NCBI RefSeq assembly: GCF_019753045.1
Contig: NZ_JAIELN010000007.1
Location: 124,001-188,000 of the forward strand
Length of the DNA stretch: 64,000 nt
Direction of reading: 5' to 3'
Origin: Hyphomicrobium sp.
GTDB taxonomy: Bacteria > Pseudomonadota > Alphaproteobacteria > Rhizobiales > Hyphomicrobiaceae
The first letter of the stretch is position 1. Each line of letters begins with the position of its first letter. Shown here in pieces: positions 938-45,847 of the stretch. The translations under genes were made by a program, and so were the position numbers. The notes beneath the pieces were generated by a model, which was not told where the DNA came from, ran no database searches, and saw only the letters and a list, made by a program, of their open reading frames with translations.

Positions 938-965
938 TTGCGCTGTATGTGCATTTGCAATTAAT
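938..965 (+). promoter_or_regulatory. Possible promoter overlapped by an operator palindrome
   Basis: TTGCGC (938-943), a 16-bp spacer, then ATTAAT (960-965). The -10 lies inside the 956-969 palindrome, so a bound protein would block it. The 16-bp spacing matches the other phage promoters; the -10 itself is unlike theirs. Confidence 0.3.
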
Positions 966-969
966 TGCA
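956..969. promoter_or_regulatory. Operator-like palindrome, exact copy
   Basis: TGCAATTAATTGCA, extended symmetrically to TTGCAATTAATTGCAA (955-970). It lies 26 bp upstream of the GTG start at 996. This is the leftmost copy of the phage-wide repeat. Confidence 0.85.
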
Positions 970-995
970 ATTGTCAAGACAGCGAGGAGAGATCC

Positions 996-1256
996 GTGCG
1001 CAAGCCTGTTCGCCTAGCGAAGAAGCCCGAAGAAAAGCTCGAGAAGGAAGTGCCCGAACCCACGCTCGTGGACGAGCCGTTCCTGCCGAACATCATTTTG
1101 GCTGAACCCGTGAAAGTCGAAGCGCCTGCTCCGGCTCCCAAGCCTGTCGCCAAAGCCGCTACTGCACCGCAGCCCGTCAGCCAGAACAACGGCGACGGCT
1201 ACGGATCAGGCGGCGTCTATCGGTCCATCGGAGGCGGCAAGCGCATCAAGTGCTGA
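996..1256 (+). CDS. Small Pro/Ala/Lys-rich phage protein of unknown function
   Basis: This 86-residue protein starts at GTG 996, chosen because of the GAGGAGAG ribosome-binding site just upstream. The N-terminal half is highly charged (KKPEEKLEKEVPEP), the middle is an Ala-Pro run and the C-terminal end is Gly-rich and ends in KC. This looks like a flexible or disordered protein. It lies between the tail terminator and tail tube genes, so it is expressed with structural genes. No family is recognised. Confidence 0.6.
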   Translation: MRKPVRLAKKPEEKLEKEVPEPTLVDEPFLPNIILAEPVKVEAPAPAPKPVAKAATAPQPVSQNNGDGYGSGGVYRSIGGGKRIKC

Positions 1257-1288
1257 CCGCCGCACCAACCAAGGAAAGGTGCTCCTAA

Positions 1289-2056
1289 ATGGCTATCAAA
1301 GTTAGAAGTTCGCATTTCGTCGGTACGTCGAAGGTCTTCGGCCGTGAGAAGGACGCTCTTGCAGCCATCCTGCGCGGCCTCGCAGCCGACAACGCGGTGA
1401 TCGCCGTCAGAACGGCTATCGCTGACGAGTCGCTCGCCATCTCTGGCCTGAAGTTTACCGACAACTCGACCGGTACTGCAGGTACGGCCGTCGGCTCTCC
1501 TGCGCTTCCGAAGGAGGCTATCGCTGCAACCGGTTCGCTCGGTGCCGATCTCGCGGCGTTCAACGCTGCCATCAGCAAGTTGACGAACGCTATGGCCGTC
1601 ATCACCGGCCGGGCGAACACGCTCCGCGCTGTCGTCGGTCTGCCGAACCTCGTGTCTGCAGGTACCGTCGCAACCGCGGGCACGATCCCGGCACAGGACA
1701 AGTCGGTCGCGGGCGCCAGCGGCTCTTCGGCTGCTTCGTTCGTAAGCGCCAAGGCAGTCCTCGAGAAGGTCTCGGCCAACCTCGGTCGCCTCGTCGAAGG
1801 CGTCAACGACACGCTCGTTGCTTTCGGTGCCCCCGCGATCCCGACGGACGTCGAAGCTCCGATCTCGGCAACTGGCGTCCTATCGCCGGGTACCGCGGTC
1901 GCTGCCGCCGCCACCGGTTCGGTCGCTCTATCGAAGGCTGATGCCGACGCGTTCCTGGCAAAGACCGCGAACGACGTCGCAACCATCGCAGCACTCTGGG
2001 TCGCTCGCGTCGACACGCTCGCCGTCGCGCCGCTCAAAGTTGTCGCTGGCAAGTAA
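1289..2056 (+). CDS. Alanine-rich phage protein of unknown function, tail region
   Basis: This 255-residue protein starts at ATG 1289, preceded by AAGGAAAGG. The composition is strongly biased to Ala, Val, Thr and Ser, with no Cys or Trp in its first two thirds. Alternating hydrophobic stretches suggest helices packed as a soluble or particle-associated protein. It lies directly upstream of the tail tube gene in the same operon, so a structural or assembly role is likely. I recognise no domain. Confidence 0.65.
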   Translation: MAIKVRSSHFVGTSKVFGREKDALAAILRGLAADNAVIAVRTAIADESLAISGLKFTDNSTGTAGTAVGSPALPKEAIAATGSLGADLAAFNAAISKLTNAMAVITGRANTLRAVVGLPNLVSAGTVATAGTIPAQDKSVAGASGSSAASFVSAKAVLEKVSANLGRLVEGVNDTLVAFGAPAIPTDVEAPISATGVLSPGTAVAAAATGSVALSKADADAFLAKTANDVATIAALWVARVDTLAVAPLKVVAGK

Positions 2057-2085
2057 CAACTCGCTCGAAAACGGAGAACTGAGAT

Positions 2086-3694: not shown

Positions 3695-3708
3695 TGCAGT
3701 TAATTGCA
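3695..3708. promoter_or_regulatory. Operator-like palindrome, one mismatch
   Basis: TGCAGTTAATTGCA starts 4 bp after the tail tube stop codon and lies just before a terminator. Confidence 0.7.
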
Positions 3709-3717
3709 AGAATTGTG

Positions 3718-3749
3718 AGAGGCTCGGGAAACCGGGCCTCTTCATTTTT
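3718..3749 (+). terminator. Rho-independent terminator after the tail tube gene
   Basis: A 10-bp stem (AGAGGCTCGG with CCGGGCCTCT, one G-U pair) closed by a GAAA tetraloop is followed by TCATTTTT. It separates the tail tube gene from the 3848-4773 cassette. Confidence 0.85.
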
Positions 3750-3775
3750 AGGTAAGTATAATTTGGGGTATTTAA

Positions 3776-4784: not shown

Positions 4785-4798
4785 TGCAATTAATTGCA
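4785..4798. promoter_or_regulatory. Operator-like palindrome, exact copy
   Basis: TGCAATTAATTGCA overlaps the -35 of the promoter for the tail chaperone operon. Confidence 0.85.
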
Positions 4799-35864: not shown

Positions 35865-35899
35865 TCGAAAGGGTGATACATCTTTCTAGGAGTGAAGAG

Positions 35900-36310: not shown

Positions 36311-36327
36311 CTACTTGTTAAGTTTAC

Positions 36328-36373: not shown

Positions 36374-36446
36374 GTCCTAAAGCAGATTATTACGGTCATC
36401 ACCCAAACATGGAGTGAAGGGGGTGACCGGAAAAAGGTCGAGTAAA

Positions 36447-36803
36447 ATGCGTATCGTCTTCACCGGCCCTGCCATCGACGGCAACGGCAATACAATCCTT
36501 CGGGCGAATCTAGCGGCAGCTTGCCTCAAGGCTGATCTGTCAATTCAGCCTGCAGTTCGGCAAGATACCGAGATACTAGTAGCGAGTCGGACGGATACGG
36601 TGAAGGCGAAGGCGGCAGCTGCTCGAGGCTTGGAAGTGATCGGATACCCGGAGTACATCAACAAATACCTTAGTGGGGTCAAGTTGCCGACTTCGGGGCG
36701 CGCTAACATCTACACCGACTTCGCCATCAATAAGCTCAACCGAGACTTATTGGTGCCGGATTTCACAAACAATGAAACTCTAGCGGCTCTCGATTCGTTG
36801 TGA
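36447..36803 (+). CDS. Stand-alone BRCT-domain protein
   Basis: This 118-residue protein is best started at ATG 36447 (MRIVFTGPAIDGNGN). The VFTG opening, the middle SIQPAVRQDTEILVAS and DTVKAKAAAARGLEVIGYPEY follow the BRCT pattern of bacterial NAD-dependent ligases. BRCT domains bind proteins or DNA ends. A free phage BRCT protein could assist the phage ligase (44,873), which lacks one; that is inference. The C-terminal 40 residues are outside the domain. Confidence 0.6.
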   Translation: MRIVFTGPAIDGNGNTILRANLAAACLKADLSIQPAVRQDTEILVASRTDTVKAKAAAARGLEVIGYPEYINKYLSGVKLPTSGRANIYTDFAINKLNRDLLVPDFTNNETLAALDSL

Positions 36804-36847
36804 GCCGATGGACTCTACCCGCGACATGCCAGGAGGGCAGCGGACTT

Positions 36848-36916
36848 ATGACTAGGAAACTTTTTGCAGGCGGAAGGGTGCAATTAATTACCCAGGCACG
36901 CCTGCTATACAACTAA
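36848..36916 (+). CDS. Possible 22-residue leader peptide containing an operator
   Basis: ATG 36848 with AGGAGG 12 bp upstream reads 22 codons to TAA 36,914-36,916, which overlaps the ribosome-binding site (TAAGGAGG) of the next gene. The peptide ends in ARLLYN. An imperfect operator (36,879-36,892) encodes V-Q-L-I-T. It may be a translational leader, or chance. Confidence 0.3.
   Translation: MTRKLFAGGRVQLITQARLLYN
36879..36892. promoter_or_regulatory. Operator-like palindrome, two mismatches
   Basis: TGCAATTAATTACC lies 34 bp upstream of the GTG at 36,927. ATTAAT and TATACA (17 bp apart) could form a promoter overlapping it. Confidence 0.55.
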
Positions 36917-36926
36917 GGAGGACGAT

Positions 36927-37442
36927 GTGGCCGACGCTACCGTGCTTTATGATAAAGCTCTGGCACTGGCTCCGCAGCTCAAAGACAACTTCATGGACCT
37001 CGCGCACCATCTGCGCGATCTATTGGAGACTGATCCGGCTGAGTTTCAGAAGTTCTACAAGAAGTCGTCTGTCAACAAACGAAAGGCGTACTATCTCGTC
37101 GAGATCGATAGGGCGTTTCGAAAACTCGGCATCTCGAAGAACCGTTTGCACAAGATTGGCTGGACCAAGGTCATGATCTTGACGAAGCACATAAACGACA
37201 GCAATGCCCAGGAATTGATCACTATGGCTGAGCAGAACAGCGCGCACAGTCTGCAAGCGCTCCTCAAGGGCCAGAAGAAACCAGCGAACGCCCATTGCGT
37301 GCTGATGTACTTCAAAGATAGCGACTACAACCTGTTCTATAACGCCCTGATCAAACGCGGCGCGCAGCAGTCGGCCCGTGGCCTAATCAACAAGGAAGAA
37401 GCGCTCGTAAAGCTTCTTAAGGATCTCGAGAAAGACCGCTGA
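36927..37442 (+). CDS. Phage protein with 'GWTK' domain, short paralogue
   Basis: This 171-residue protein starts at GTG 36927 behind AAGGAGG. It carries the same domain as the 371-residue protein at 34,575 without the disordered N-terminal extension: FYKKSSVNKRKAYYLVEIDR, FRKLGISKNRLHKIGWTK and NDSNAQELITMAEQNSAH, then a second conserved region (DYNLFYNALIKRGAQQSARG). Having two forms on one phage suggests division of roles such as dimer partners. The function is unknown. Confidence 0.62.
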   Translation: MADATVLYDKALALAPQLKDNFMDLAHHLRDLLETDPAEFQKFYKKSSVNKRKAYYLVEIDRAFRKLGISKNRLHKIGWTKVMILTKHINDSNAQELITMAEQNSAHSLQALLKGQKKPANAHCVLMYFKDSDYNLFYNALIKRGAQQSARGLINKEEALVKLLKDLEKDR

Positions 37443-37446
37443 GTAA

Positions 37447-37482
37447 CCACGAAAACCATTGGCTTGGCTGATGGTTTTGTGG
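37447..37482 (+). terminator. Stem-loop terminator after the GWTK short paralogue
   Basis: CCACGAAAACCAT pairs with ATGGTTTTGTGG around an 11-base loop, starting five bases after the stop codon. A T-run follows only after a short gap (CTTTTG). Confidence 0.6.
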
Positions 37483-37493
37483 CACGCTGCTTT

Positions 37494-37507
37494 TGCAATT
37501 AATTGCA
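37494..37507. promoter_or_regulatory. Operator-like palindrome, exact copy
   Basis: TGCAATTAATTGCA lies 18 bp upstream of the ATG at 37,526, between it and the preceding terminator. Confidence 0.85.
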
Positions 37508-37525
37508 CAAACCCAGGAGGGAAGA

Positions 37526-37912
37526 ATGGCAGCAGCACAGCAGCCTCAGCAGCAAATCTCGGCAACCAAGACCGCACCGGTAGACCTGACCAGCGTTCTA
37601 CAGGGCGTGGACATGAAGCTCCAGAAGGAACGCGAGCAGATCGCCCGCGCCATCAACGATCCGAACCTGATCCGCGACTTCACGACGTTCAACTCGTGGG
37701 TAGCCGGCATGCAGGCCTCGATCCGTACGCTCGATTTGCTCACCGGCAAGGTGATGGACGTTCACGGCACGGCATGGCCCGAGATACCGGCGCCTAAGCC
37801 GCCACAGTCCGCTCAGCCGGAGCCCGCTACACCAGCAGAGGCAAAGCCAGCAGAAGCACCTTCCGCACCGATCGCGGCAAGCACTTCTGAAGGGGGCGCA
37901 ACAGCCCAATGA
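37526..37912 (+). CDS. Phage protein of unknown function, helical with disordered tail
   Basis: This 128-residue protein starts at ATG 37526 behind CCAGGAGGG. A central helical part (LQGVDMKLQKEREQIARAIN, then DFTTFNSWVAGMQASIRTL) is followed by a Pro/Ala-rich tail of 45 residues. It ends in an overlap with the next ATG. It looks like a small interacting protein; no family is recognised. Confidence 0.58.
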   Translation: MAAAQQPQQQISATKTAPVDLTSVLQGVDMKLQKEREQIARAINDPNLIRDFTTFNSWVAGMQASIRTLDLLTGKVMDVHGTAWPEIPAPKPPQSAQPEPATPAEAKPAEAPSAPIAASTSEGGATAQ

Positions 37913-38181
37913 AACGCGGCAGCACCCCAGTAACGTTCGTCAGCTCTGTAGCGCAGACACGTAAGGGTACCGCCCAGTTCCTTGTCCTCCAATCAGGAGG
38001 GCAGGGACCACTCAAGCTGGAGTACCCCGACAAAGCCTCGGCAATGAGTGCCAGAGCCCAAATCATGAAGTCCGGCAACACATACACAGTCGCGAGCATG
38101 AAGCTCTTCGGGGCAATCTCAGAAGCTCTCAGAGCGCCTCCGAAACAATCGCGGCAAGCACTTCCCGAAGAGTCAGACTGA
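37909..38181 (+). CDS. Small phage protein of unknown function
   Basis: This 90-residue protein starts at ATG 37909, overlapping the previous stop. The beta-rich first half (TPVTFVSSVAQTRKGTAQFL) and a helical second half give no family match. A short sequence, ATCGCGGCAAGCACTTC, near its 3' end also occurs near the end of the previous gene (about 37,870), a small direct repeat. Confidence 0.55.
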   Translation: MKRGSTPVTFVSSVAQTRKGTAQFLVLQSGGQGPLKLEYPDKASAMSARAQIMKSGNTYTVASMKLFGAISEALRAPPKQSRQALPEESD

Positions 38182-38289
38182 CAAGATCTGACAGGGACAA
38201 AGACCTAAGCCAAAAGCCAACTTTGGACGTCCCTGGAGACAGTCCCAAAATCGCGGCAAACGATAGTAGCAGAACCATGCCTGAAGGAG

Positions 38290-38303
38290 TGCAATTAATG
38301 GCA
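38290..38303. promoter_or_regulatory. Operator-like palindrome, one mismatch, over a start codon
   Basis: TGCAATTAATGGCA spans the gap between AAGGAG (38,284-38,289) and ATG 38298. The mismatch creates the ATG. Binding here would also cover the translation start region. Confidence 0.7.
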
Positions 38304-38588
38304 GCAAGCCCGCAAAACCCCAGCAGATACGAGACGTTTGAAGAGAGCCAGGCAAAGCTCAGAAACAGCCGAGAAAGACTGATCAAAGTGAGCCCAGACA
38401 ACGATAATAGTAAGGGTGTCAGAACAGCTGCAATTACGTGGGTATTCGCACTGATCGTTGTGGGCGCATCGATCGGTTCAATCGCAACGATGACGTGGTT
38501 CAGCAGAGAGATCCAAGGCACTCACAGAACGCCGGTAGAACGCCCAGCAGATGTACAGCCCGTAGAGCAGGAGACGGCACCGGTATGA
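38298..38588 (+). CDS. Small single-pass membrane protein (cluster of four, 1)
   Basis: This 96-residue protein starts at ATG 38298, set by AAGGAG 8 bp upstream; earlier in-frame starts lack one. A charged N-terminal half (TFEESQAKLRNSRERLIK) precedes one membrane segment (AAITWVFALIVVGASIGSIA) and a Pro-rich tail. It is the first of four overlapping genes for small membrane proteins. The function is unknown; phage envelope proteins of this type often protect the host from other phages. Confidence 0.6.
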   Translation: MAASPQNPSRYETFEESQAKLRNSRERLIKVSPDNDNSKGVRTAAITWVFALIVVGASIGSIATMTWFSREIQGTHRTPVERPADVQPVEQETAPV

Positions 38589-38701
38589 GCGGAGAGATAG
38601 ATCCGACGTCGGCAGCGGCGATCGTTGCAATGGTCATGTGGCTGGGTGCAGCACTGCTGTGTCTGTTCGTGGCGGTGATGATGCTGCTGGGGAAACTCTG
38701 A
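38585..38701 (+). CDS. 38-residue membrane protein (cluster of four, 2)
   Basis: The frame starts at ATG 38585, overlapping the previous stop. After an acidic start (MSGEIDP) the remainder is one membrane segment (AAIVAMVMWLGAALLCLF). The stop overlaps the next ATG (TGATG). Confidence 0.5.
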   Translation: MSGEIDPTSAAAIVAMVMWLGAALLCLFVAVMMLLGKL

Positions 38702-38787
38702 TGGGTGCGATGGAGCTCGGCATGCTGATCGGCGCTGGGTGCGTGTGGTTCGGCATTTTCTTGTGGGTGTTGTGGGGGAGGCTCTGA
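38701..38787 (+). CDS. 28-residue membrane protein (cluster of four, 3)
   Basis: Reads ATG 38701 to TGA 38,785-38,787. Nearly all residues form a membrane helix (LIGAGCVWFGIFLWVLW) capped by GRL. Its stop overlaps the next start. The tight overlap chain suggests it is translated, although it is very short. Confidence 0.45.
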   Translation: MGAMELGMLIGAGCVWFGIFLWVLWGRL

Positions 38788-39290
38788 TGGAGATCCAGAT
38801 GACGTATGATCAGACGATGGTGCAGCACGTGAATTGGGAGCTTGTATCGCTAGCCGGCTTCTTGCTGGCGGGCGCCTTCATGGTCGCAATATGGCTGCGG
38901 TACTCGGCCAAGCTCGACCGTGATTTCGAAGCGCGTATCGCTGCATGGCGCGCATACGAAGGCGAAGAAGTCGCCGAAGAAGACGAGGAGCAGTTCGAGG
39001 AACCGGCACAGCCATACGGCCGTCCGAGCTGGTACCGCATGACGCCTGTGCAAAGGGCTGCAGACCCGAAGTCCGTCATACCGCCTGTGCCGAGTGAAGG
39101 CGAAGTCTGGAAGCACACGAAGACGGGTCTCAGGTACAAGGTGACGGGCGCAGTCTTCAACGCGCTGACCGATAAAGTCGACGTCACGTATGAGCCGCTC
39201 TATGTCCCGAGCGTACGGGAGTTCACCCGCCAGCTGCTCGATCAAAACGAGGACGGTACGGCCCGTTTCGTTCTGATCGATTTCGCCTGA
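38787..39290 (+). CDS. Membrane-anchored DUF1653-like protein (cluster of four, 4)
   Basis: This 167-residue protein starts at ATG 38787, overlapping the previous stop. One membrane segment at about 17-37 (WELVSLAGFLLAGAFMVAIW) is followed by an acidic linker and a C-terminal domain resembling DUF1653 (GEVWKHTKTGLRYKVTG, then VTYEPLY and REFTRQLLD). DUF1653 domains are small beta folds of unknown role, usually soluble; an anchored form is unusual. Start at 38,787 is chosen because of the overlap. Confidence 0.6.
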   Translation: MEIQMTYDQTMVQHVNWELVSLAGFLLAGAFMVAIWLRYSAKLDRDFEARIAAWRAYEGEEVAEEDEEQFEEPAQPYGRPSWYRMTPVQRAADPKSVIPPVPSEGEVWKHTKTGLRYKVTGAVFNALTDKVDVTYEPLYVPSVREFTRQLLDQNEDGTARFVLIDFA

Positions 39291-39292
39291 TT

Positions 39293-39306
39293 TGCAATTA
39301 ATTGCA
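39293..39306. promoter_or_regulatory. Operator-like palindrome, exact copy
   Basis: TGCAATTAATTGCA lies 18 bp upstream of the -35 at 39,325, the shorter of two recurring spacings. Confidence 0.85.
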
Positions 39307-39324
39307 CAAGCAGTCGCATTTCAA

Positions 39325-39352
39325 TTGCACCGGTGTCCGCATGTGCGAGGAT
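39325..39352 (+). promoter_or_regulatory. Cassette promoter (CAGTCGC box type)
   Basis: CAGTCGCATTTCAA (from 39,311), TTGCAC (39325-39330), 16-bp spacer, GAGGAT (39347-39352), G. Same architecture as the promoters at 40,232, 42,003, 42,508 and 44,378. Confidence 0.65.
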
Positions 39353-39359
39353 GTTTGTA

Positions 39360-39530
39360 TCAAGGGAGCGGTTAGGCGCTCGGTCAGTCCGGCATAAAAG
39401 CAAGCTCGCCATTGACGGTATTCAGCCCGTAGATAGAGCATGTACGTGGCTTGATCGTTCCCAAAGCACCAGCTAGTTGGTGTGTGAAAGCCTCGGGCCG
39501 CTCAGTATACGGGTGGCTCGGGGCTTTCTT
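39360..39530 (+). ncRNA. Candidate phage small RNA (promoter to terminator, no ORF)
   Basis: About 170 bases lie between a cassette promoter and a strong terminator. I find no credible + strand start with a ribosome-binding site in it, so transcription would give a short non-coding RNA. It could also be a long leader with attenuation of the 39,560 gene. The tRNA cloverleaf was not found. Confidence 0.35.
39486..39530 (+). terminator. Rho-independent terminator
   Basis: GAAAGCCTCGGGCC pairs with GGCTCGGGGCTTTC (14 bp with two G-U pairs), followed by TT. It stands 30 bp before the next gene. Confidence 0.75.
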
Positions 39531-39559
39531 GCATCTAGTGCAGACCCAGGAGGGGTGAA

Positions 39560-40120
39560 GTGAAACGGTTGGCATATGCAACGCTCGTGTCCGGGCTCAT
39601 GACAGGCGTCCTGTTGTCGTCAGGGACTGCCAGAGCAGAAGAATGGTATTTCAACAGCGAGCCAAACGCGTTCCAGGGCGCGGTGAATGACGCCTTCATT
39701 GTCACTAATCGGCAGATGATGACCGGCTTTACGTGCCGCAATAATTTCGACATGGCGATGAATTTGGTCACGCCCGAGAGGTTCAAAGGCGATCGCGTAG
39801 AAGGGAAGGCGACGCTCGCAATCATCGTCGATGACTTGCCGCCCACCGAAATCCCCGCCAAGCTCTTGGTGAACAACAACAATAAGTTCCTCTTCAAGGC
39901 AGACGATGCGGAGACCACCCGCACCCATGTCCTCACCATTGCCAAGCTCGTCCGCACGGCAAGTACAAGGTTTGCTGTTGCCGGCATGCTGGACGGTCAG
40001 ATCATGCACTCGAGCAACTTCGACCTGATTGGTATGCCGAAAGCATTGGGCCAGCTCCTTGCTGCGTGTCAGCGCTCAACCGACACGATGAAGACAGGCA
40101 GGACTCCCGTAGAGAAGTAA
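39560..40120 (+). CDS. Secreted phage protein of unknown function
   Basis: This 186-residue protein starts at GTG 39560 behind CCAGGAGGGG. It has a Sec signal peptide (LATLV..LLSSGTARA, cleavage before EEWYF). The mature part (YFNSEPNAFQGAVNDAFIVT, MMTGFTC, a long C-terminal helix) has two cysteines that could pair. It lies alone between two terminators (39,486 and 40,136), a moron-like layout. The target is probably periplasmic; the function is unknown. Confidence 0.62.
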   Translation: MKRLAYATLVSGLMTGVLLSSGTARAEEWYFNSEPNAFQGAVNDAFIVTNRQMMTGFTCRNNFDMAMNLVTPERFKGDRVEGKATLAIIVDDLPPTEIPAKLLVNNNNKFLFKADDAETTRTHVLTIAKLVRTASTRFAVAGMLDGQIMHSSNFDLIGMPKALGQLLAACQRSTDTMKTGRTPVEK

Positions 40121-40135
40121 TCAGGGCCGGAATAG

Positions 40136-40166
40136 GGCGTCGCTTCTCAGGAGGTGGCGCCTTTTG
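40136..40166 (+). terminator. Rho-independent terminator after the secreted protein gene
   Basis: GGCGTCGCTTCT pairs with GGAGGTGGCGCC (several G-U pairs), followed by TTTTGTTA. Confidence 0.65.
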
Positions 40167-40189
40167 TTATGCAGTTGTTAGCCGTAGTT

Positions 40190-40203
40190 TGCGCTTAATT
40201 GCA
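40190..40203. promoter_or_regulatory. Operator-like palindrome, two mismatches
   Basis: TGCGCTTAATTGCA lies 28 bp upstream of the -35 at 40,232. Confidence 0.5.
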
Positions 40204-40231
40204 AACTTCTCTGCAGGCAGTCGCTTTTCAA

Positions 40232-40259
40232 TTGCACTCGCTCGTATGCAACGCAGAAT
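40232..40259 (+). promoter_or_regulatory. Cassette promoter (CAGTCGC box type)
   Basis: CAGTCGCTTTTCAA, TTGCAC (40232-40237), 16-bp spacer starting TCGCTCG, CAGAAT (40254-40259), G. Drives the genes from 40,295. Confidence 0.7.
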
Positions 40260-40294
40260 GAGGACATCAACGGCATCCAACTAGGATTGAAGCG

Positions 40295-40573
40295 ATGCAA
40301 ACCTCCTCTTTCTCGGCTCTTCGTGCACCTGTCTCCCCGGTAGCTATGGCCCCGGTCGACCTCAAGAAGCTCGCTCGTACGAACCCCCGCAACTTCGCAG
40401 CCATGGACGCATCGACGGTCCTCTGCATGGCAGCCCGCGAGTTCAGCCGCATGTTCGGTTCGAAAGAAGAGGCAGTCGCCCAGTTGAAGACGCTGCCGGT
40501 TGTTCGCCAGCATGCACTCGACAAGTCGCTCGCCAAGGCAGACGCCAAGCGCCTCGGCCTCATTCGCAACTGA
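40295..40573 (+). CDS. Small phage protein of unknown function
   Basis: This 92-residue protein starts at ATG 40295 behind TAGGATTGAAG, the leader also used at 42,067. Mostly helical with basic C-terminus (KSLAKADAKRLGLIRN). The DNA-binding potential cannot be judged. It is the first gene of an early-type operon of three small genes. Confidence 0.55.
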   Translation: MQTSSFSALRAPVSPVAMAPVDLKKLARTNPRNFAAMDASTVLCMAAREFSRMFGSKEEAVAQLKTLPVVRQHALDKSLAKADAKRLGLIRN

Positions 40574-40590
40574 GACGTCAGGAGTAGACG

Positions 40591-40776
40591 ATGAAACGCG
40601 AGATCATCGGGCTCAAGCCTGGCTGTTGTGGCTGTTGCCCAGGCCACGATGAGTTCCCCGATGACAGCTACGGTAATCGTCGATCGAAGAGAGCCCGGTC
40701 GGAAGGCAAGGCTCGTGAGCACCGGCTTGTTCGCCGCGTGATGAAGGTTCGCACAAAGGCTGAAGCCAATGAGTAA
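40591..40776 (+). CDS. Small Cys-rich basic phage protein
   Basis: This 61-residue protein starts at ATG 40591 behind CAGGAGTAG. It has PGCCGCCPGHDE near the start, a possible metal-binding knuckle, then a basic region (RRSKRARSEGKAREHRLVRR). Such small proteins recur in early regions of phages and may bind nucleic acid; this is not shown. Confidence 0.55.
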   Translation: MKREIIGLKPGCCGCCPGHDEFPDDSYGNRRSKRARSEGKAREHRLVRRVMKVRTKAEANE

Positions 40777-40933
40777 TACGCAAGAGAAGCTGCCCGACGG
40801 CTACGATGTACGTCTGCTGGGCTTCAAGAAGTGGGCCTGCATCGCACCCGACGGCACGCAGATAGCCGTTTGCACCAACCTCCGCTACGCCGCCAGCCGT
40901 TGCCAGCGCCACTCTGTCGGACTCAAGTTTTGA
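40769..40933 (+). CDS. Small phage protein of unknown function (54 residues)
   Basis: ATG 40769 overlaps the end of the previous gene and reads to TGA 40,931-40,933. Sequence LPDGYDVRLLGFKKWACIA followed by a basic, Cys-containing helix (YAASRCQRHSVGLKF) looks like a small alpha/beta protein. An exact operator follows 8 bp after the stop. Confidence 0.5.
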   Translation: MSNTQEKLPDGYDVRLLGFKKWACIAPDGTQIAVCTNLRYAASRCQRHSVGLKF

Positions 40934-40941
40934 TAGCAGTT

Positions 40942-40955
40942 TGCAATTAATTGCA
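40942..40955. promoter_or_regulatory. Operator-like palindrome, exact copy
   Basis: TGCAATTAATTGCA lies 19 bp upstream of the ATG at 40,975. TTGCAA-N16-GAGAAT-G also fits the promoter spacing, but GAGAAT overlaps the ribosome-binding site, so a promoter here is doubtful. Confidence 0.85.
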
Positions 40956-40974
40956 CAGCCAGGAGAATGAACGC

Positions 40975-41181
40975 ATGAACGACACCACGAACGATAGTGG
41001 CGAAGTCAACTTCGCCGAGCGCGAGGCCAGGATCAGGGACAACCCGAGCATGGACGACTGTTACGCAACCGGCCGTTCGCACTTTGGCTACGGCTGGGCC
41101 TGCACGCCCTGGGGCCATTGGAGTGACGAGCAGAAAGAGGCCTATCGCGCTGGCTACCAGGCCGCGAAGCAGAAAGGCTGA
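40975..41181 (+). CDS. Small phage protein of unknown function
   Basis: This 68-residue acidic protein starts at ATG 40975 behind CCAGGAG; an upstream in-frame start arises from the operator. The C-terminal half (YGWACTPWGHWSDEQKEAYR, then AGYQAAKQKG) resembles ribosome modulation factor-like YxxGYxAxxxG ends, seen in many small phage proteins. Four bases separate it from the methylase gene. Confidence 0.55.
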   Translation: MNDTTNDSGEVNFAEREARIRDNPSMDDCYATGRSHFGYGWACTPWGHWSDEQKEAYRAGYQAAKQKG

Positions 41182-41184
41182 CCA

Positions 41185-41958
41185 GTGGCACGTAGTACCG
41201 CTCAGAAGGTCGCCCCGGCTAGCCGCCACAAGGCCCGCTCGAGGGAGTTCCTGGAGCTCGTCGGCAAGATCTCCATGCTGGAAGGCTGGCGTGAGTACGA
41301 CGCCCTGACGAAGTGGCTGGAGGCTGCCACCTGTGCGCTCCGCAATCCGGTGCTCAGGACGATCGGCGACAAGCTCACGTGGGACGAGAACGAGGCCCGC
41401 TACATGAAGATCGTGCACTCGTGCCGGCACCCGGATGACACGATGGGCGCCATGAGCAAGATGCTGGCAGTTGCTCAGCTCGCACTCGACGAGGAGCCGT
41501 CTGACTTCATTGGGCCGATGTTCATGGAGGTCGCAGCCAACTCGCACGTCGGTCAGTTCTTCACGCCGCATGAGCTCTCGATAGTTGCCGCCCGCATGAC
41601 AATGGCGAACCCTCGCGACATGCTCGAGGCTGTCATGAAGGACGAGGGCCGTGATCACCTGATGCTGTGCGAGCCCGCGTGCGGTGTTGGCGGAATGGTG
41701 TTAGCAGCCAATCAGGTGATGCGGGAGTTCAACCTCGATCCCGCGCGACACGCCCACTGGGTCTGCACGGACATAGATCTGAAGGCCGTCTGCGGCGCCT
41801 ACATTCAGCTGACCTTGACTGACACGTCAGCCGTTGTCGTCCACGGCAACACGATCACGCGCGAGATGTTCGATGTCCTGATCACGGCGCCGGCCCTGCG
41901 CTACCCGAAGCGCAAGCTGCATCCCGATCACGTAGTCGAGCCCGCTCTGGTGGAGTAG
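41185..41958 (+). CDS. N6-adenine DNA methylase-like protein lacking the NPPY motif
   Basis: This 257-residue protein starts at GTG 41185. It has GQFFTPHELSIVAARM and CEPACGVGGMVLAANQVM (S-adenosylmethionine-binding motif I), as in HsdM-type adenine methylases, and CTDIDLKAVCGAY (motif II-like). The chain ends soon after ITREMFDVLITAPAL, and no D/N-P-P-Y/F catalytic motif is present. It may be inactive, use a changed site, or need a partner. Orphan methylases protect phage DNA from restriction. The ending is well formed and no frameshift is obvious. Confidence 0.7.
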   Translation: MARSTAQKVAPASRHKARSREFLELVGKISMLEGWREYDALTKWLEAATCALRNPVLRTIGDKLTWDENEARYMKIVHSCRHPDDTMGAMSKMLAVAQLALDEEPSDFIGPMFMEVAANSHVGQFFTPHELSIVAARMTMANPRDMLEAVMKDEGRDHLMLCEPACGVGGMVLAANQVMREFNLDPARHAHWVCTDIDLKAVCGAYIQLTLTDTSAVVVHGNTITREMFDVLITAPALRYPKRKLHPDHVVEPALVE

Positions 41959-41960
41959 TG

Positions 41961-41974
41961 TGCAATTAATTGCA
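41961..41974. promoter_or_regulatory. Operator-like palindrome, exact copy
   Basis: TGCAATTAATTGCA starts two bases after the methylase stop and 28 bp before the -35 at 42,003. Confidence 0.85.
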
Positions 41975-42002
41975 AATTTAAGCAGGTGCAGTCGCTTTCT
42001 AA

Positions 42003-42030
42003 TTGACCCCGCTCGTATGGGGCGCAGAGT
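42003..42030 (+). promoter_or_regulatory. Cassette promoter (CAGTCGC box type)
   Basis: CAGTCGCTTTCTAA, TTGACC (42003-42008), 16-bp spacer starting CCGCTCG, CAGAGT (42025-42030). Confidence 0.75.
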
Positions 42031-42066
42031 ACGTATAGACAACTTGGCAAACTAGGATTGAACCCC

Positions 42067-42327
42067 ATGATCGCACTGAACGCCCTCCAGAAGACGGACA
42101 TCAAATCGGTTTACACAGGCCGCGCTGGCAAGTGCTGCTGCGGATGCGCCGGCACCCACTCGGAGAAGCCAGCCACCAAGACGTATGTGCTGAACATCCT
42201 GAAGAAGAACGCAGCCGACGTTGACGATGACGGAGACAATCTCTCGGTTGAAATCGGTGGCCGCCTGTACGTCGCCTACCGCACGCAAGAAGCCCAGAAC
42301 GCAGTCCAGAACGCAAGAGCCGCCTGA
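42067..42327 (+). CDS. Small phage protein with CxCGCxG motif
   Basis: This 86-residue protein starts at ATG 42067 behind TAGGATTG. YTGRAGKCCCGCAGTHSE gives a Cys cluster followed by His, a likely metal site, found in small early proteins of several phages. The second half (YVLNILKKNAADVDDDGDN, then LSVEIGGRLYVAYR) is a small alpha/beta region. Stop overlaps the next ATG. Confidence 0.6.
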   Translation: MIALNALQKTDIKSVYTGRAGKCCCGCAGTHSEKPATKTYVLNILKKNAADVDDDGDNLSVEIGGRLYVAYRTQEAQNAVQNARAA

Positions 42328-42473
42328 TGAACCGCAAGTCCCAGAAGAAGCTGTCCCGCCTGATGAACGACCTGTTCGCACCCGATCGGGTTCGCGAGAG
42401 CGGGATGCAGGCCTCGATCGACCGCATGCTTGCAGCCAAGAAAGCCAAAGAGCAGGCCGCAGCGGGCAATTAA
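42327..42473 (+). CDS. Small basic phage protein (48 residues)
   Basis: ATG 42327 overlaps the previous stop; TAA 42,471-42,473 lies within an operator copy, which encodes the last residues (Gly-Asn-stop). The chain is a basic helix (NRKSQKKLSRLMNDLF, RMLAAKKAKEQ). It is short but supported by the overlap. Confidence 0.5.
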   Translation: MNRKSQKKLSRLMNDLFAPDRVRESGMQASIDRMLAAKKAKEQAAAGN

Positions 42474-42478
42474 TTGCA
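42465..42478. promoter_or_regulatory. Operator-like palindrome, one mismatch
   Basis: GGCAATTAATTGCA overlaps the stop codon of the preceding small gene and lies 29 bp before the -35 at 42,508. Confidence 0.75.
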
Positions 42479-42507
42479 ATTTCTCAGCAGGAGTCGTCGC
42501 ATTTCAA

Positions 42508-42535
42508 TTGACCACGCTCGCATGGGGCGCAGAGT
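42508..42535 (+). promoter_or_regulatory. Cassette promoter (CAGTCGC box type, variant)
   Basis: GTCGTCGCATTTCAA, TTGACC (42508-42513), 16-bp spacer starting ACGCTCG, CAGAGT (42530-42535), G. Confidence 0.75.
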
Positions 42536-42570
42536 GATTGCAGAACATATGGCAACTAGGAGTGAGCGCC

Positions 42571-42771
42571 ATGATCGATGTCAGCAAGATCCGCCCGGTC
42601 GACCTTTACAACTGCGTGAGCGCGGTGGAGTTCGAGCTGGAGATTGAGATCGGCAAAGATGAAGTAGTCGACATCGCCCTTGGCACGCATGAAGCGTTCG
42701 GCCCTGAGACGGGTGTCGCCAAGATTGTCCGCGAAGTCCTCACAGAGGCGCAACAGGAGACCCAGCAGTGA
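42571..42771 (+). CDS. Small acidic phage protein
   Basis: This 66-residue protein starts at ATG 42571 behind TAGGAGTGAG. Acidic and alpha/beta-like (VDLYNCVSAVEFELEIEI, then a helix ending in EAQQETQQ). Its stop overlaps the next start. No family is recognised. Confidence 0.55.
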   Translation: MIDVSKIRPVDLYNCVSAVEFELEIEIGKDEVVDIALGTHEAFGPETGVAKIVREVLTEAQQETQQ

Positions 42772-42983
42772 AACTAGCCACTTACATTGACCAGCTGACA
42801 ACCGCCGGAATTGAGCCTAAGATCGCCACAGCTCATGCTAAGGCGCTCGAAACCATGCTCGATGACAAGTACGTCACCAAGGATTACCTGGACGCCAAGC
42901 TGTCCGACGTGAAGGCTGTGCTCTTCCAGACCGTGGGCATTGCCGGTATCTTCCTCGCGATCATGAAGCTGACGGCTCACTGA
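42768..42983 (+). CDS. Small phage protein with C-terminal hydrophobic segment
   Basis: This 71-residue protein starts at GTG 42768, overlapping the previous stop. Helical N-terminal part (IEPKIATAHAKALETML, KYVTKDYLDAKLSDVK) and a hydrophobic end (FQTVGIAGIFLAIMKL). The plan resembles the CCDC90-type/coiled-coil small membrane proteins found in phages and bacteria. The role is unknown. Confidence 0.55.
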   Translation: MKLATYIDQLTTAGIEPKIATAHAKALETMLDDKYVTKDYLDAKLSDVKAVLFQTVGIAGIFLAIMKLTAH

Positions 42984-42985
42984 AG

Positions 42986-43216
42986 GTGGCCGAGTACTGG
43001 CTCACGGGCGTCAATCCGTCCGACGGGGTGAAGATCTACGTCAAACGTATCGGCCCGCACCGCTTCTGGCACGAGGACCGGCTTGAATGGGTGCGCGACG
43101 TTGCGCAAGCCACTCGCTTCACCGAAGCCCAGGCGCAGACGAACTACTGGCGATTGAAACGCCTCATGCGCGGCGGCTACCAACTCACGACTGAGATAGC
43201 AAGCCCGAAGCGCTAA
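42986..43216 (+). CDS. Small phage protein of unknown function
   Basis: This 76-residue protein starts at GTG 42986. It contains YVKRIGPHRFWHEDR and FTEAQAQTNYWRLKRLM, basic and aromatic-rich. Last gene of a three-gene operon started at 42,571. No family is recognised. Confidence 0.52.
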   Translation: MAEYWLTGVNPSDGVKIYVKRIGPHRFWHEDRLEWVRDVAQATRFTEAQAQTNYWRLKRLMRGGYQLTTEIASPKR

Positions 43217-43265
43217 GAAAGCGCTAACGCCGAGTGTATGCCCGACGTTTAGCAAGCCGAGGATT

Positions 43266-43279
43266 TGCAATTAAATTCA
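43266..43279. promoter_or_regulatory. Operator-like palindrome, two mismatches
   Basis: TGCAATTAAATTCA lies one base upstream of the -35 at 43,281. Confidence 0.55.
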
Positions 43280-43280
43280 C

Positions 43281-43308
43281 TTGACCCGCCCCGGTCAGGT
43301 CGCAGTAT
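43281..43308 (+). promoter_or_regulatory. Promoter next to an operator copy
   Basis: TTGACC (43281-43286), 16-bp spacer starting CGCCCCGG, CAGTAT (43303-43308), G. The CAGTCGC box is absent; the operator abuts the -35 instead. Confidence 0.7.
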
Positions 43309-43331
43309 GAAGCCATCACTAGGAGTGCAAG

Positions 43332-43613
43332 ATGACTGAAGAGAAGACTGGAAAGAAGCCAGAAGACCCTCCGAATTTCACAGTGACCGTCGAGCGCATG
43401 CCTGGCGAGGTGTATAGGGCAACCGTTGGCCGGTTTGTCGGCGAGGGCAAAGAGAAGGTGTTCGCGATCCACGCGTGCTGGGAGTCGAAGAGCCAAGCCA
43501 TCGCCATCAAGCGCGCCCTGGAGGAGTTTGAGGAGAACGTCGGCAAGAAGGAGCTGGAAGCCGACCACGATGCTCCGTGGGTCAAGCGGTCGGTGCCGGC
43601 TGATCTGCATTAA
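43332..43613 (+). CDS. Small phage protein of unknown function
   Basis: This 93-residue protein starts at ATG 43332 behind TAGGAGTG. A beta-rich region (NFTVTVERMPGEVYRATVG) is followed by a helix (QAIAIKRALEEFEENVGKK). The layout of strands then an EE-rich helix resembles the three proteins that follow, although sequence similarity is low. It is the first gene of that operon. Confidence 0.55.
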   Translation: MTEEKTGKKPEDPPNFTVTVERMPGEVYRATVGRFVGEGKEKVFAIHACWESKSQAIAIKRALEEFEENVGKKELEADHDAPWVKRSVPADLH

Positions 43614-43633
43614 GCAAGCGTAGGAGAGTAGAC

Positions 43634-43840
43634 GTGCCGAGGTTCAAAGTAACAGTTCAGCAGATGGTCGTAGAGGCGGCCGACATCGCAGTCAACGCCG
43701 ACAGCTTGGAAGAAGCCGTCAAGCTCGTCAGGCAAGGTATCGATGACGGCACGATTGTTCCCGAGTGGAAGGACGAGCTCGCTCCGATATCGATCGACCA
43801 TATAGGCGTCAAGATCAGGTCCGTCGTTTCGATCGATTGA
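43634..43840 (+). CDS. DpnD/PcfM-like small protein, tandem paralogue 1
   Basis: This 68-residue protein starts at GTG 43634 behind GGAGAG (PRFKVTVQQMVVEAADIAVN). Pattern: short strand, V-E/V-E-A-A, Ala-rich turn, then LEEAVKLVRQGIDDG and PEWKDE. The same pattern recurs in the next two genes. The strand-helix plan resembles the DpnD/PcfM C-terminal family, small proteins of unknown biochemistry near restriction or conjugation genes. That link is tentative. Confidence 0.55.
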   Translation: MPRFKVTVQQMVVEAADIAVNADSLEEAVKLVRQGIDDGTIVPEWKDELAPISIDHIGVKIRSVVSID

Positions 43841-43846
43841 GCATAA

Positions 43847-43860
43847 TGCAATTAATTGCA
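43847..43860. promoter_or_regulatory. Operator-like palindrome, exact copy, between tandem paralogues
   Basis: TGCAATTAATTGCA lies between paralogues 1 and 2, 22 bp upstream of the TTG start of paralogue 2. Confidence 0.85.
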
Positions 43861-43882
43861 AATACAATCTAGGAGCACGTCG

Positions 43883-44098
43883 TTGCCGAAGTACACTGTC
43901 CGCGTGAAGCAGTACGTGGAAGAGGTCGCTGAGTTCGAAGTCGAAGCCGACAATGACGAAGAGGCCATGGCCCTCGTCAAGTACGGTCTCGAGCATAGCT
44001 CGATTGATCTCGATTGGAAGGAAGGCAACGAGGCGCTCGGCCTGCGAGTAGCAACGCTGACCGAGAAGAAGCCTGACGACCCGAAACGTCTGAATTGA
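43883..44098 (+). CDS. DpnD/PcfM-like small protein, tandem paralogue 2
   Basis: This 71-residue protein is best started at TTG 43883 (PKYTVRVKQYVEEVAEFEVE), set by TAGGAG and by alignment with its neighbours, which also begin (M)P-K/R-Y/F; an upstream ATG belongs to the operator. EEAMALVKYGLEHSSIDLDW aligns with paralogue 3. Ends in a charged tail (EKKPDDPKRLN). Confidence 0.58.
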   Translation: MPKYTVRVKQYVEEVAEFEVEADNDEEAMALVKYGLEHSSIDLDWKEGNEALGLRVATLTEKKPDDPKRLN

Positions 44099-44111
44099 GC
44101 AGGAGAGCGCC

Positions 44112-44354
44112 GTGCCGAAGTACAAAGTAACGATCCAGCAGTTCGTCGAAGAGGTGGCTGAAGTGACGATCACTGCCGCCAGTCCCGAAGAGGCCATGCA
44201 ACTCGCTCAGGAGGGTGTGGATGACGGCTCGCTCGATATCGACTGGAGTGATGGCTCTGACGTCATGGAGGCGAAGGCCATCCGCGCCAGACCGATTGCC
44301 AGAAAGGTAAGTAAGCCTGTTGAGCCGGATGATTGGATTGTAGTTTGCAATTAA
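44112..44354 (+). CDS. DpnD/PcfM-like small protein, tandem paralogue 3
   Basis: This 80-residue protein starts at GTG 44112 behind CAGGAGAG (PKYKVTIQQFVEEVAEVTIT, EEAMQLAQEGVDDGSLDIDW). About half of the first 50 positions match paralogue 2. Its stop codon (TAA 44,352-44,354) falls within the operator copy at 44,346. Confidence 0.58.
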   Translation: MPKYKVTIQQFVEEVAEVTITAASPEEAMQLAQEGVDDGSLDIDWSDGSDVMEAKAIRARPIARKVSKPVEPDDWIVVCN

Positions 44355-44359
44355 TTGCA
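44346..44359. promoter_or_regulatory. Operator-like palindrome, exact copy
   Basis: TGCAATTAATTGCA overlaps the stop of the preceding gene and lies 18 bp upstream of the -35 at 44,378. Confidence 0.85.
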
Positions 44360-44377
44360 AATTCAGTCGCTTTCAGT

Positions 44378-44405
44378 TTGACCCCGCTCGACTGCATCGC
44401 AGAAT
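44378..44405 (+). promoter_or_regulatory. Cassette promoter (CAGTCGC box type)
   Basis: CAGTCGCTTTCAGT, TTGACC (44378-44383), 16-bp spacer starting CCGCTCG, CAGAAT (44400-44405), G. Confidence 0.75.
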
Positions 44406-44437
44406 GAACGGGTCAAGCAATTCATCACTAGGAGTGA

Positions 44438-44647
44438 ATGATGAAACGCGAATTTATCCTCCAGACTGAAATGACCGGCGAAGGCGCCCACCGCGCAATG
44501 GCGTTCGAGTGGACCGAGTATCGCGGCAGCCCGTACCTCAGCCTCCTTGAATGCTGGGAGTCGCCCTGCCCGAAGACCTCGCTCAACAAGCTGCGCCGCG
44601 AGCTCAAGAAGACGTACGGCGACTACAGCCTGAAGCGGGCAGCATGA
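44438..44647 (+). CDS. Small phage protein of unknown function
   Basis: This 69-residue protein starts at ATG 44438 (or the next codon) behind TAGGAGTG. Contains FEWTEYRGSPYLSLLECWES and a basic C-terminal helix (LNKLRRELKKTYGDYSLKRA). First gene of the ligase operon. No family is recognised. Confidence 0.55.
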   Translation: MMKREFILQTEMTGEGAHRAMAFEWTEYRGSPYLSLLECWESPCPKTSLNKLRRELKKTYGDYSLKRAA

Positions 44648-44658
44648 GGAGTAGCACA

Positions 44659-44886
44659 TTGCTGAAGTATGACCCCGAAATCGTTGCGCTTGCGTGCCGT
44701 ATGGTCGAGCTGAGATTGGCCTACACCCGCGTGAACGATCGGTACGCCAAGTACCAGTCTGAGTGGCTCGATGTAACGCGGCGCCACGTGTGGGCGGCCT
44801 ACACGGAGACAGTCGAGACGCTCAAGGCCACCGCCGAAGCGAAAGGATTAGACGAAACGAAAGGGAAGCCCGATGTCGACGCCTAA
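44659..44886 (+). CDS. Small phage protein of unknown function
   Basis: This 75-residue helical protein is started at TTG 44659, 7 bp after GAGGAG; an ATG at 44,644 lies before that site and has none of its own. Contains YDPEIVALACRMVELRLAY and a second helix ending in LKATAEAKGLDE. Overlaps the ligase start by 14 bp. Confidence 0.48.
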   Translation: MLKYDPEIVALACRMVELRLAYTRVNDRYAKYQSEWLDVTRRHVWAAYTETVETLKATAEAKGLDETKGKPDVDA

Positions 44887-45847
44887 GAAACTGAAGCCAC
44901 TGCTCGCCCTGAGCAAGGTACCTAACCTGCACACGGAAGTGACATGGCCCAAGATGATGAGCACGAAGCTCGACGGCTTCCGGTGCCTGATTGTTGAGGG
45001 TGAGCCGCGCTCTCGCAAGCTGCTCGAAATCCCGAACCTGCATGTCAGGCGGCACCTGACCAGCCTTCCACACGGCCTCGACGGCGAGCTGACCGTGGGA
45101 GCACCGAACGATCCGAACGTCTTCACGAACACGGCGAAGGGCGTGGGCAAGCAATCAGGAGAACCCGACTTCACGTTCTGGGTGTTCGACGACTTCTCGC
45201 TCGATGCGCCGTTCATGACCCGGCACGAGAATGCACGCACTGTGGTTGAGAGCCTGAACCTGCCGTACGTCAAGCTGCTGCCGCATGTGCATGTGAAGTC
45301 GGCCGACGAATCTGATGACATGAGCCGCTGGTGGTTCGACCAGGGTTACGAAGGAGCGATCCTGAGATCGATAGCAGGCCAGTACAAGTATGGCCGCTCG
45401 ACGCTGAACGAGCAGATCATGCTGAAGATCAAGTTCTGGGAGGACACCGAAGGCGAAATCCTGGCAGTCCACGAGCAGGAGTCGAACACGAACGAAGCTC
45501 AGGTCGATGAGTTGGGCCACACGAAGCGCTCGACAGCCAAGGCCGGCAAGGTCGCCAACGGCACGCTGGGTGCAGTCGATGTCCGCTGGAACAACGGCAA
45601 GGAGACCGTCGAGTTCAGCTTGGCAGCCGGCGTGGCTGCGCTCTGGGCGATCAAGGACGAGCTGCCAGGCCAGATGGTCAGCTTCAAGTTCAACGGTATC
45701 GGCGTCAACGGCCGTCCCCGTTTCCCGATCTGGAAAGGCCTAAGAAGTGCAATTGATTGCACGACAGCAGATGCTGCGGTCAATGGCGATGCCGACCGCG
45801 CCTGTTCGCGTTTCCGGGTGTCTGGCTGCGCTGCAACGGACTGGTGA
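44873..45847 (+). CDS. ATP-dependent DNA ligase (phage), with aberrant C-terminal extension
   Basis: The frame starts at ATG 44873 and encodes 324 residues. Nucleotidyltransferase motifs: STKLDGFR (motif I, Lys32), FWVFDDF (motif III-like), GYEGAILRS (motif IV, Glu160), MLKIKFW (motif V, Lys185/187). An OB domain follows and the family ending is NGRPRFPIWKGLR at about residue 290. The last 33 residues run through an operator copy into chromosome-like sequence, so they are probably not native; the true phage end was likely changed by integration. It seals nicks in phage replication and recombination. Confidence 0.8.
   Translation: MSTPKKLKPLLALSKVPNLHTEVTWPKMMSTKLDGFRCLIVEGEPRSRKLLEIPNLHVRRHLTSLPHGLDGELTVGAPNDPNVFTNTAKGVGKQSGEPDFTFWVFDDFSLDAPFMTRHENARTVVESLNLPYVKLLPHVHVKSADESDDMSRWWFDQGYEGAILRSIAGQYKYGRSTLNEQIMLKIKFWEDTEGEILAVHEQESNTNEAQVDELGHTKRSTAKAGKVANGTLGAVDVRWNNGKETVEFSLAAGVAALWAIKDELPGQMVSFKFNGIGVNGRPRFPIWKGLRSAIDCTTADAAVNGDADRACSRFRVSGCAATDW
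45748..45761. promoter_or_regulatory. Operator-like palindrome, one mismatch, rightmost copy
   Basis: TGCAATTGATTGCA, within the ligase reading frame. No further copy is found to the right, marking the end of phage DNA. Confidence 0.72.

Follow-up and report, generated by a model that had tools for sequence, protein, structure and literature searches.

A phage-wide set of dyad-symmetric palindromes in a Hyphomicrobium prophage and its siphophage relatives, with a candidate XRE-type reader

Introduction

The best-known stoperator networks that span a whole genome are those of mycobacteriophages, and a dispersed-site layout is also found in the RK2 Kor and the Noc sites. In cluster A, L5, Bxb1 and their relatives carry 20–30 sites genome-wide, some at promoters and the majority elsewhere, in short intergenic spaces; the site consensus differs between related phages, and the 13-bp, asymmetric L5 sites are oriented with transcription and read by a monomer with two DNA-binding domains (PMC6550527, PMC9283540). 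The start-associated sequences (SAS) of cluster K are short repeats just upstream of start codons, in 11–19 copies; each is an asymmetric 13-mer, typically separated from the start codon by 3–7 bp, and all are restricted to the non-structural half of the genome (PMC3203893). Here we analyze the 14-bp palindrome TGCAATTAATTGCA, which recurs in a 64,000-nucleotide stretch of a Hyphomicrobium sp. genome ('the window'; NZ_JAIELN010000007.1, here contig C4, positions 124001–188000, of the 4.5-Mb genome called G000).

Judged from sequence, the palindromes are genuine dyad-symmetric DNA sites that extend across the phage and are deeply conserved. The explanation we prefer, which we consider about equally likely to be right or wrong, is an operator/stoperator-type silencing network that would be read by one phage-encoded, dimeric Cro/CI-type (XRE) repressor. 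As in cluster A, one site occurs in many copies across the genome, mostly off promoters (assessed here and below by consensus words only), and its consensus varies in concert between related phages. As with SAS, the repeats are short and stand upstream of start codons; unlike SAS, they are palindromic, usually lie farther upstream and occur in structural as well as early regions.

Results and discussion

Palindromic sites in the window

A pattern search located 28 copies of TGCAATTAATTGCA in the window, 16 exact, six with one mismatch and six with two, compared with a mean of 0.12 and a maximum of one in 100 shuffles. The positions given for all 16 exact and all six one-mismatch sites by the initial annotation of the window were correct. 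The sites, to which no strand is assigned, are as follows (window coordinates; G060 is a sister species described below):

956–969, exact palindrome; orthologous site in G060
3695–3708, one-mismatch site (TGCAGTTAATTGCA); orthologous in G060
4785–4798, exact palindrome; before gene near tape-measure gene, of a family site-bearing in 11 of 11 phages
11379–11392, one-mismatch site; directly 3′ of tape-measure gene
15222–15235, exact palindrome; within a 143-aa coding sequence, same position in G060
17854–17867, exact palindrome; within the end of an 856-aa tail gene, same position in G060
22115–22128, two-mismatch site; doublet with 22150
22150–22163, exact palindrome; called start 20 bp downstream
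25895–25908, exact palindrome; ahead of AAA-ATPase gene
28348–28361, exact palindrome; called start 27 bp downstream
29239–29252, exact palindrome; ahead of ResIII helicase gene
31119–31132, exact palindrome; ahead of RecA-like gene
34452–34465, one-mismatch site; doublet with 34487, G060 also having a doublet
34487–34500, exact palindrome; gene family after RuvC, site in 12 of 14 phages
35815–35828, two-mismatch site; adjoins TTGCAC promoter-like word
36339–36352, two-mismatch site
36879–36892, two-mismatch site
37494–37507, exact palindrome; called start 18 bp downstream
38290–38303, one-mismatch site
39293–39306, exact palindrome; promoter-like word downstream
40190–40203, two-mismatch site; promoter-like word downstream
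40942–40955, exact palindrome; called start 19 bp downstream
41961–41974, exact palindrome; promoter-like word downstream
42465–42478, one-mismatch site; promoter-like word downstream
43266–43279, two-mismatch site; adjoins TTGACC word
43847–43860, exact palindrome
44346–44359, exact palindrome; promoter-like word downstream
45748–45761, one-mismatch site; rightmost of the window, within the end of the DNA ligase gene

Gene starts and coding status were taken from a home-made gene caller, and for phage RcZahn from its GenBank annotation. Twenty-five of the 28 sites are intergenic, two of these overlapping the end of the preceding gene by 9 bp, and three (15222, 17854 and 45748) lie inside coding sequences. 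The initial statement that most sites lie 5–30 bp from a start was too strong: seven fall within 30 bp upstream of a called start and 20 within 120 bp. Of the 45 sites in G000, 38 fall in non-coding sequence, as do 52 of the 62 in G060; such sequence makes up 17–19% of the sequences concerned. In RcZahn, non-coding DNA amounts to 5.3% of the genome and contains 13 of 29 sites, and a start follows within 120 bp for 15 of the 29, where 5.6 would be expected at random (largest of 2000 placements, 15). By eye, terminator-like hairpins directly follow the sites at 3695 (window 3709–3760) and C4:122547 (L002:18561–18610).

Restriction to the prophage and conservation of positions

The G000 genome holds 26 exact copies, all on C4: 21 at 113088–168346, starting 10.9 kb left of the window, and five at 229437–262934, about 41–75 kb beyond its right end. 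The initial annotation had named many copies elsewhere in the host as the sign of a host regulon or genomic repeat; both are ruled out, as no exact or one-mismatch copy occurs off C4, and among the matches listed the five on contigs C1–C3 all have two mismatches. The 3′ half of tRNA-Pro (confirmed with ARAGORN) is repeated over at least 40 bp at C4:~112350 and ~265518, and these repeats at both ends place the right part of the window inside the prophage attachment boundaries. That site-free part, described initially as chromosomal, is therefore not plain chromosome; it belongs to about 81 kb of mostly foreign DNA (C4 about 170–251 kb), which holds one exact site, C4:229437. Siphophage genes in the window and to its left encode portal, protease, tape measure, AAA, ResIII helicase, RecA, RuvC and ligase proteins.

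Among 103 genomes of the bacterial family, nine have exact copies, and only G000 (26) and G060 (28) have more than two. The G060 copies belong to a 102-kb prophage that has 62 sites when two mismatches are allowed. This prophage is colinear with G000 C4:112–170 kb plus C4:251–265 kb and, like the G000 prophage, is bounded by tRNA-Pro 3′ half repeats; the part of it missing from G000, about 23 kb, contains terminase and polymerase genes. In a comparison anchored by 60 reciprocal gene pairs, 36 of the 45 G000 sites had an anchor within 400 bp, and for 26 of these a G060 site lay within 60 bp of the predicted place, compared with 263 of 2626 random points (10%). Two of the 26 position-matched sites are inside coding sequence. 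In another genome, G048, the sites belong to what is left of a G060-like prophage, whose integrase is 94% identical.

Some places are also shared across the 17-sequence phage set that we used for counts of centres, gene families and homologues. A site precedes the prohead protease gene in 16 of 17 phages, the gene near the tape measure in 11 of 11 and the gene after RuvC in 12 of 14, whereas the average for an upstream site over 53 gene families is 0.23 and 17 families are site-free upstream in every phage. Homologous places carry sites with different centres in different phages, from which it follows that the site set changed together in each lineage, as would be expected of sites following one reader.

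A motif family across 80–110-kb siphophages

The motif does not stand alone but belongs to a family spread over many phages: in a wide group of 80–110-kb siphophages the outer arms TGCAA/TTGCA are retained and the central four bases are phage-specific. In de novo fits, G000, G060, G203, G206, G207 and G213 gave TGCAATTAATTGCA (mostly flanked by G and C) and G210 gave TGCAACTAGTTGCA; the centres or arms were looser in G216, G221 and G228. Centres differ between phages of the 17-sequence set, and the top-ranked palindromes of each phage are all of one type, with none clear in G221. Exact TGCAA-N4-TTGCA matches number 9 in RcZahn, 17 in RHph_TM16, 15 in RHph_Y1_11, 31 in DLP5, 33 in JP1, 27 in RcTiptonus, 25 in V-YDF132, 42 in plasmid p7, 47 in L338C, 30 in PaMx31 and 27 in RcKickapoo; site-poor relatives are SIO-2 (3), VHB1 (3), 1.215.A (1), HC (0), VA-RY-4 (2) and LukeCage (0). 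The reversed-pattern control gave no match in any named relative counted. G221 has only two such matches because its arms vary. A search with the capsid protein recovered 43 IMG/VR loci, 33 of which were scanned as whole records, and 29 of these 33 contain at least one match up to two mismatches.

Spacing of the sites is more even than random in DLP5, JP1, RcTiptonus, V-YDF132 and p7 (coefficient of variation 0.36–0.58; 0 of 5000 simulations), as well as in RHph_TM16 (P 0.0008), G206 and G213 (P 0.003) and RcZahn (P 0.03), and is borderline in G060 and G207 (P 0.05) and G210 (P 0.09). When compared with a random choice of gene starts, RcZahn exceeds the expected evenness (P 0.0002) and G060 does not clearly do so (P 0.10).

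The stoperator parallel drawn by the initial annotation is apt for the layout and fails for the site. Unlike the L5 site, the one described here is a 14–16-bp palindrome, present in up to about 60 copies with often even spacing, and its asymmetric variants have no consistent orientation: counts with and against transcription are 9:0 in JP1, 18:8 in DLP5, 9:2 in G228 and 8:2 in G213, but 6:14 in G060, 5:9 in G207 and 9:8 in G206. The candidate reader proposed below, with 98 aa and one recognised helix-turn-helix (HTH), may also differ from the two-domain L5 repressor.

Other TGCAATTAATTGCA-type sites were seen outside these phages. Six lie in G046:C3:598736–623809 (L228–L230), a region where the called genes matched nothing in the 100-kb phages and no XRE turned up. 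Proteins resembling RcZahn gp51 occur near sites in G046, G048, G053 and G054, as weak matches (E 2e-4 to 9e-7).

Form of the site

Alignment of 253 sites of the TTAA group revealed no flanking motif beyond about two bases on each side. Arm changes were compensated at 5 of 160 positions and uncompensated at 155, so it is the symmetric DNA sequence that is kept, not an RNA stem, and an RNA hairpin is ruled out. An isolated −35/−10 promoter box was likewise rejected as a general explanation, there being no conserved box at a fixed distance in the 253 sites. With neither feature present, the element is best described, from its sequence, as a dyad-symmetric DNA site. Translation-level or RNA elements resembling the cluster K sequences are accordingly disfavoured and, in our judgement, highly improbable; closeness to ribosome-binding sites would suit them (Shine–Dalgarno-like words follow 182 of the 253 sites and precede 62), but the rarity of compensation speaks against them, as do sites within genes, before promoter-like words or more than 100 bp from the next start.

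A candidate reader and its proposed action

The initial annotation had placed a possible binder to the left of the window, and a candidate is indeed encoded there, although its binding to the sites is a prediction. The most likely reader in the G000 prophage is a 98-aa XRE protein, whose gene (C4:115348–115644) lies 8.4–8.7 kb left of the window, adjoining and co-encoded with a GNAT acetyltransferase gene. The protein matches HTH_31/HTH_3 and phage-repressor profiles, and its structure model is an all-helical HTH resembling ClgR, C.Esp1396I and HipB (weakly, best E 5e-3). Homologues are present in 11 of the 17 phages; in the 'phages' collection at E 1e-5 they were found only in RcZahn, RHph_TM16 and RHph_Y1_11, all of which bear sites. 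A site lies within 150 bp upstream of the GNAT gene in 6 of 10 phages. An HTH_3/HTH_31 protein is linked with the dyad-symmetric site except in five distant records and the fragment G213.

The association recurs in prophages of G045 and G055 which, by reading of their genes, are HK97-type and unrelated to the 100-kb phages. Each carries an XRE gene, with a recognition helix similar to that of the 98-aa protein, and five sites within two mismatches of TTGCAATCAATTGCAA, of which four are exact in G055 and one in G045. Genes of G054 homologous to these prophages had no BLASTP match in the 100-kb phages. With the G045 protein as query, the only match in 297 genomes of the order was in G000. Starting from XRE genes, we found sites at 6 of 30 IMG/VR loci (19 sites, 0.35 expected; three of the six are G206, G207 and G228, already in the phage set) and at both of two genome loci (L247, two sites; L248, seven). 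In the small prophages themselves (G055, L054:500–14300; G045, L050/L051) the XRE gene stands amid tail-like genes, and L248 is a Rhizobium contig whose seven TGCAA-N4-TTGCA sites, mostly of the p7 type (TGCAACNNGTTGCA), are no more than about 10 kb away from a distant XRE-like gene.

Restriction to phage, dyad symmetry and positional conservation together favour the dimeric binder of a phage-wide network suggested initially. If the XRE protein is that binder, one HTH would read each TGCAA half-site, and the central four bases would set an immunity-like specificity that differs by phage. Sites just upstream of promoter-like words, a minority, would act as operators in the control of initiation, while the majority, between a stop codon and the ribosome-binding site of the next gene and with no evident promoter, would serve as roadblocks to read-through that keep the one-strand prophage silent, as stoperators do.

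The promoter-like words allow a different role. The XRE protein might turn on early promoters from about −50 and silence elsewhere, the sites being dual in function, which we regard as quite unlikely. Fourteen TTAA-group sites have a TTGACN/TTGCAC word starting 6–9 bp after the site, but a word lies within 45 bp downstream at only 30 of 263 sites (five of these words being part of a neighbouring site), and no element keeps a fixed distance in the 253 aligned sites. A second repeated block, TTTCA followed by TTGACC or TTGCAC, stands after several TTAA-group sites, often 6–9 bp on; in window 35800–44500 and in the G060 early region these blocks are candidate early promoters.

Several observations weigh against silencing by the XRE repressor. 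The same promoter-like words occur upstream at 16 of 263 sites, making the downstream excess a modest one, and the 6–9-bp gap in 14 of 30 cases would let a bound protein activate or repress. Gene-start placement weakens in distant phages: DLP5 has only 14 of 36 sites in called non-coding sequence (home-made caller), and V-YDF132 shows a weak A-rich conserved stretch downstream of its sites. The lifestyle of RcZahn is given as not determined (PMC8601537) and V-YDF132 is reported to be lytic, which means that silencing in lysogeny may not be the function in every phage. No XRE homologue was detectable in DLP5, JP1, RcTiptonus, V-YDF132 or plasmid p7, in the fragment G213, or by tblastn in L338C, PaMx31 and RcKickapoo; DLP5 and V-YDF132 lack even an HTH_3 match at E 0.05. 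XRE was seen in only 7 of the 33 capsid-found records, most of which are fragments, and as a single-protein query it retrieved no relatives in IMG/VR. Conversely, 24 of the 30 XRE-first IMG/VR loci are without an exact TGCAA-N4-TTGCA (most differ in the recognition helix or are short), the G054 contig has an XRE gene but, over 8.9 kb, not one site even when two mismatches are allowed, and in 4 of 10 phages the GNAT gene is not directly preceded by a site. Lastly, motif distance correlates with XRE distance at r 0.60–0.67, which is not above other core proteins and so adds nothing beyond common descent.

Other possible readers

The main rival of the XRE repressor is a ParB/KorB/Noc-like protein encoded near the terminase gene, which would load at the sites and slide or bridge for silencing, partition or packaging. 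Across the wide phage group its presence fits that of the sites better than XRE does: ParB_N matches occur in the site-rich L338C, PaMx31, RcKickapoo, V-YDF132, JP1, DLP5, RcTiptonus and RHph_TM16 and in none of the six site-poor relatives (0–3 sites), although these negative Vibrio phages may form one clade. A homologue is present in 13 of the 17 phages, and even tiling, strongest in the distant phages, would suit such a clamp, as would DLP5, which is reported to exist as a phagemid and to have genes for two ParB-domain proteins (PMC5834331). Dispersed palindromes recall RK2 KorB/KorA and Noc, and a low-confidence model of the ParB-like protein (mean pLDDT 55) matches ParB, Noc and KorB folds (best E 3e-10). 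In contrast to a Kor/Noc network, however, each phage has one palindrome type (none clear in G221), and site specificity follows the ParB-like protein poorly. G060 and G206 share the palindrome while their ParB-like proteins are barely alike (E 8e-9), the G206 protein being 23% identical to those of the other type (as in G228). ParB-like distance tracks the motif worst of 14 proteins in the XRE phages (r 0.22, P 0.08; r 0.27, P 0.01 by Mantel test in all 13), and in a common set of nine phages its r is 0.22, compared with 0.67 for XRE and about 0.6 for capsid genes. A site lies just upstream of the ParB-like gene in only 2 of 13 phages, and G000 is without the gene. PF02195 had no match in site-rich p7, in RcZahn (although RcZahn gp1 is a ParB-like homologue by phmmer) or beside the G045 and G055 sites; the DNA fetched around the latter held no ParB-like homologue, the sole ParB_N match in G055 being on another contig and those in G045 at least 1.1 Mb away. 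We consider a ParB-like reader unlikely.

Some other phage protein, neither XRE nor ParB-like, might instead read the sites in all these phages and use them in replication, recombination or packaging; examples would be the AAA protein that the phages share or a small HTH that escaped recognition. The sites predate the detectable range of XRE, several replication proteins are common to nearly all 17 phages, and even spacing fits a whole-genome function. The strong gene-start placement in the alphaproteobacterial group and the XRE association in unrelated small prophages count against such a protein, which we also think improbable. No small HTH common to the distant phages and absent from the XRE phages was recognised in the gene lists, and the annotated 'transcriptional repressor' of DLP5 was rejected as a reader, having no Pfam domain.

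The reader may differ among lineages. Tentatively, the wide group of 80–110-kb siphophages could share an evenly tiled TGCAA-N4-TTGCA layer in which positions are kept, centres change jointly per lineage and the reader has been replaced in the course of evolution: XRE would serve one branch, and perhaps a ParB/KorB-type clamp or another protein would serve elsewhere.

Other features of the prophage

The foreign stretch (window 46300–64000 and onwards) carries metal-resistance-type genes, encoding cation efflux proteins, multicopper oxidases, an outer-membrane efflux protein and an AcrB-type pump. Defence-type genes occupy its right end (C4:231373–250307; L005, L006): a SIR2-type short-Argonaute partner with a short Argonaute, a multiubiquitin/E2 with a ThiF/E1-like protein, and SNF2 and AAA_12/RNase H helicases. 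One phage-like gene lies at C4:244228–244911. The G000 portal homologue is truncated (L002:13230–13500), and the 12-kb window piece 11388–23356 had no megablast match among the named phages.

Implications

We found no paper naming this palindrome network in the literature covered, which excludes subscription papers and preprints; the motif strings matched only a mosquito/dengue paper. The term 'palindrom' is absent from the main text of PMC8601537, PMC9413028 and PMC5834331 and, by term count, from PMC7326821. The network is a symmetric counterpart of the stoperator networks in proteobacterial phages, including the culturable RcZahn, DLP5 and JP1. Its dozens of sites, with centres that have diverged phage by phage, offer a test bed for the co-evolution of a network and its reader, and bear on prophage silencing and superinfection immunity in phages considered for therapy, such as DLP3 (title of PMC7326821).

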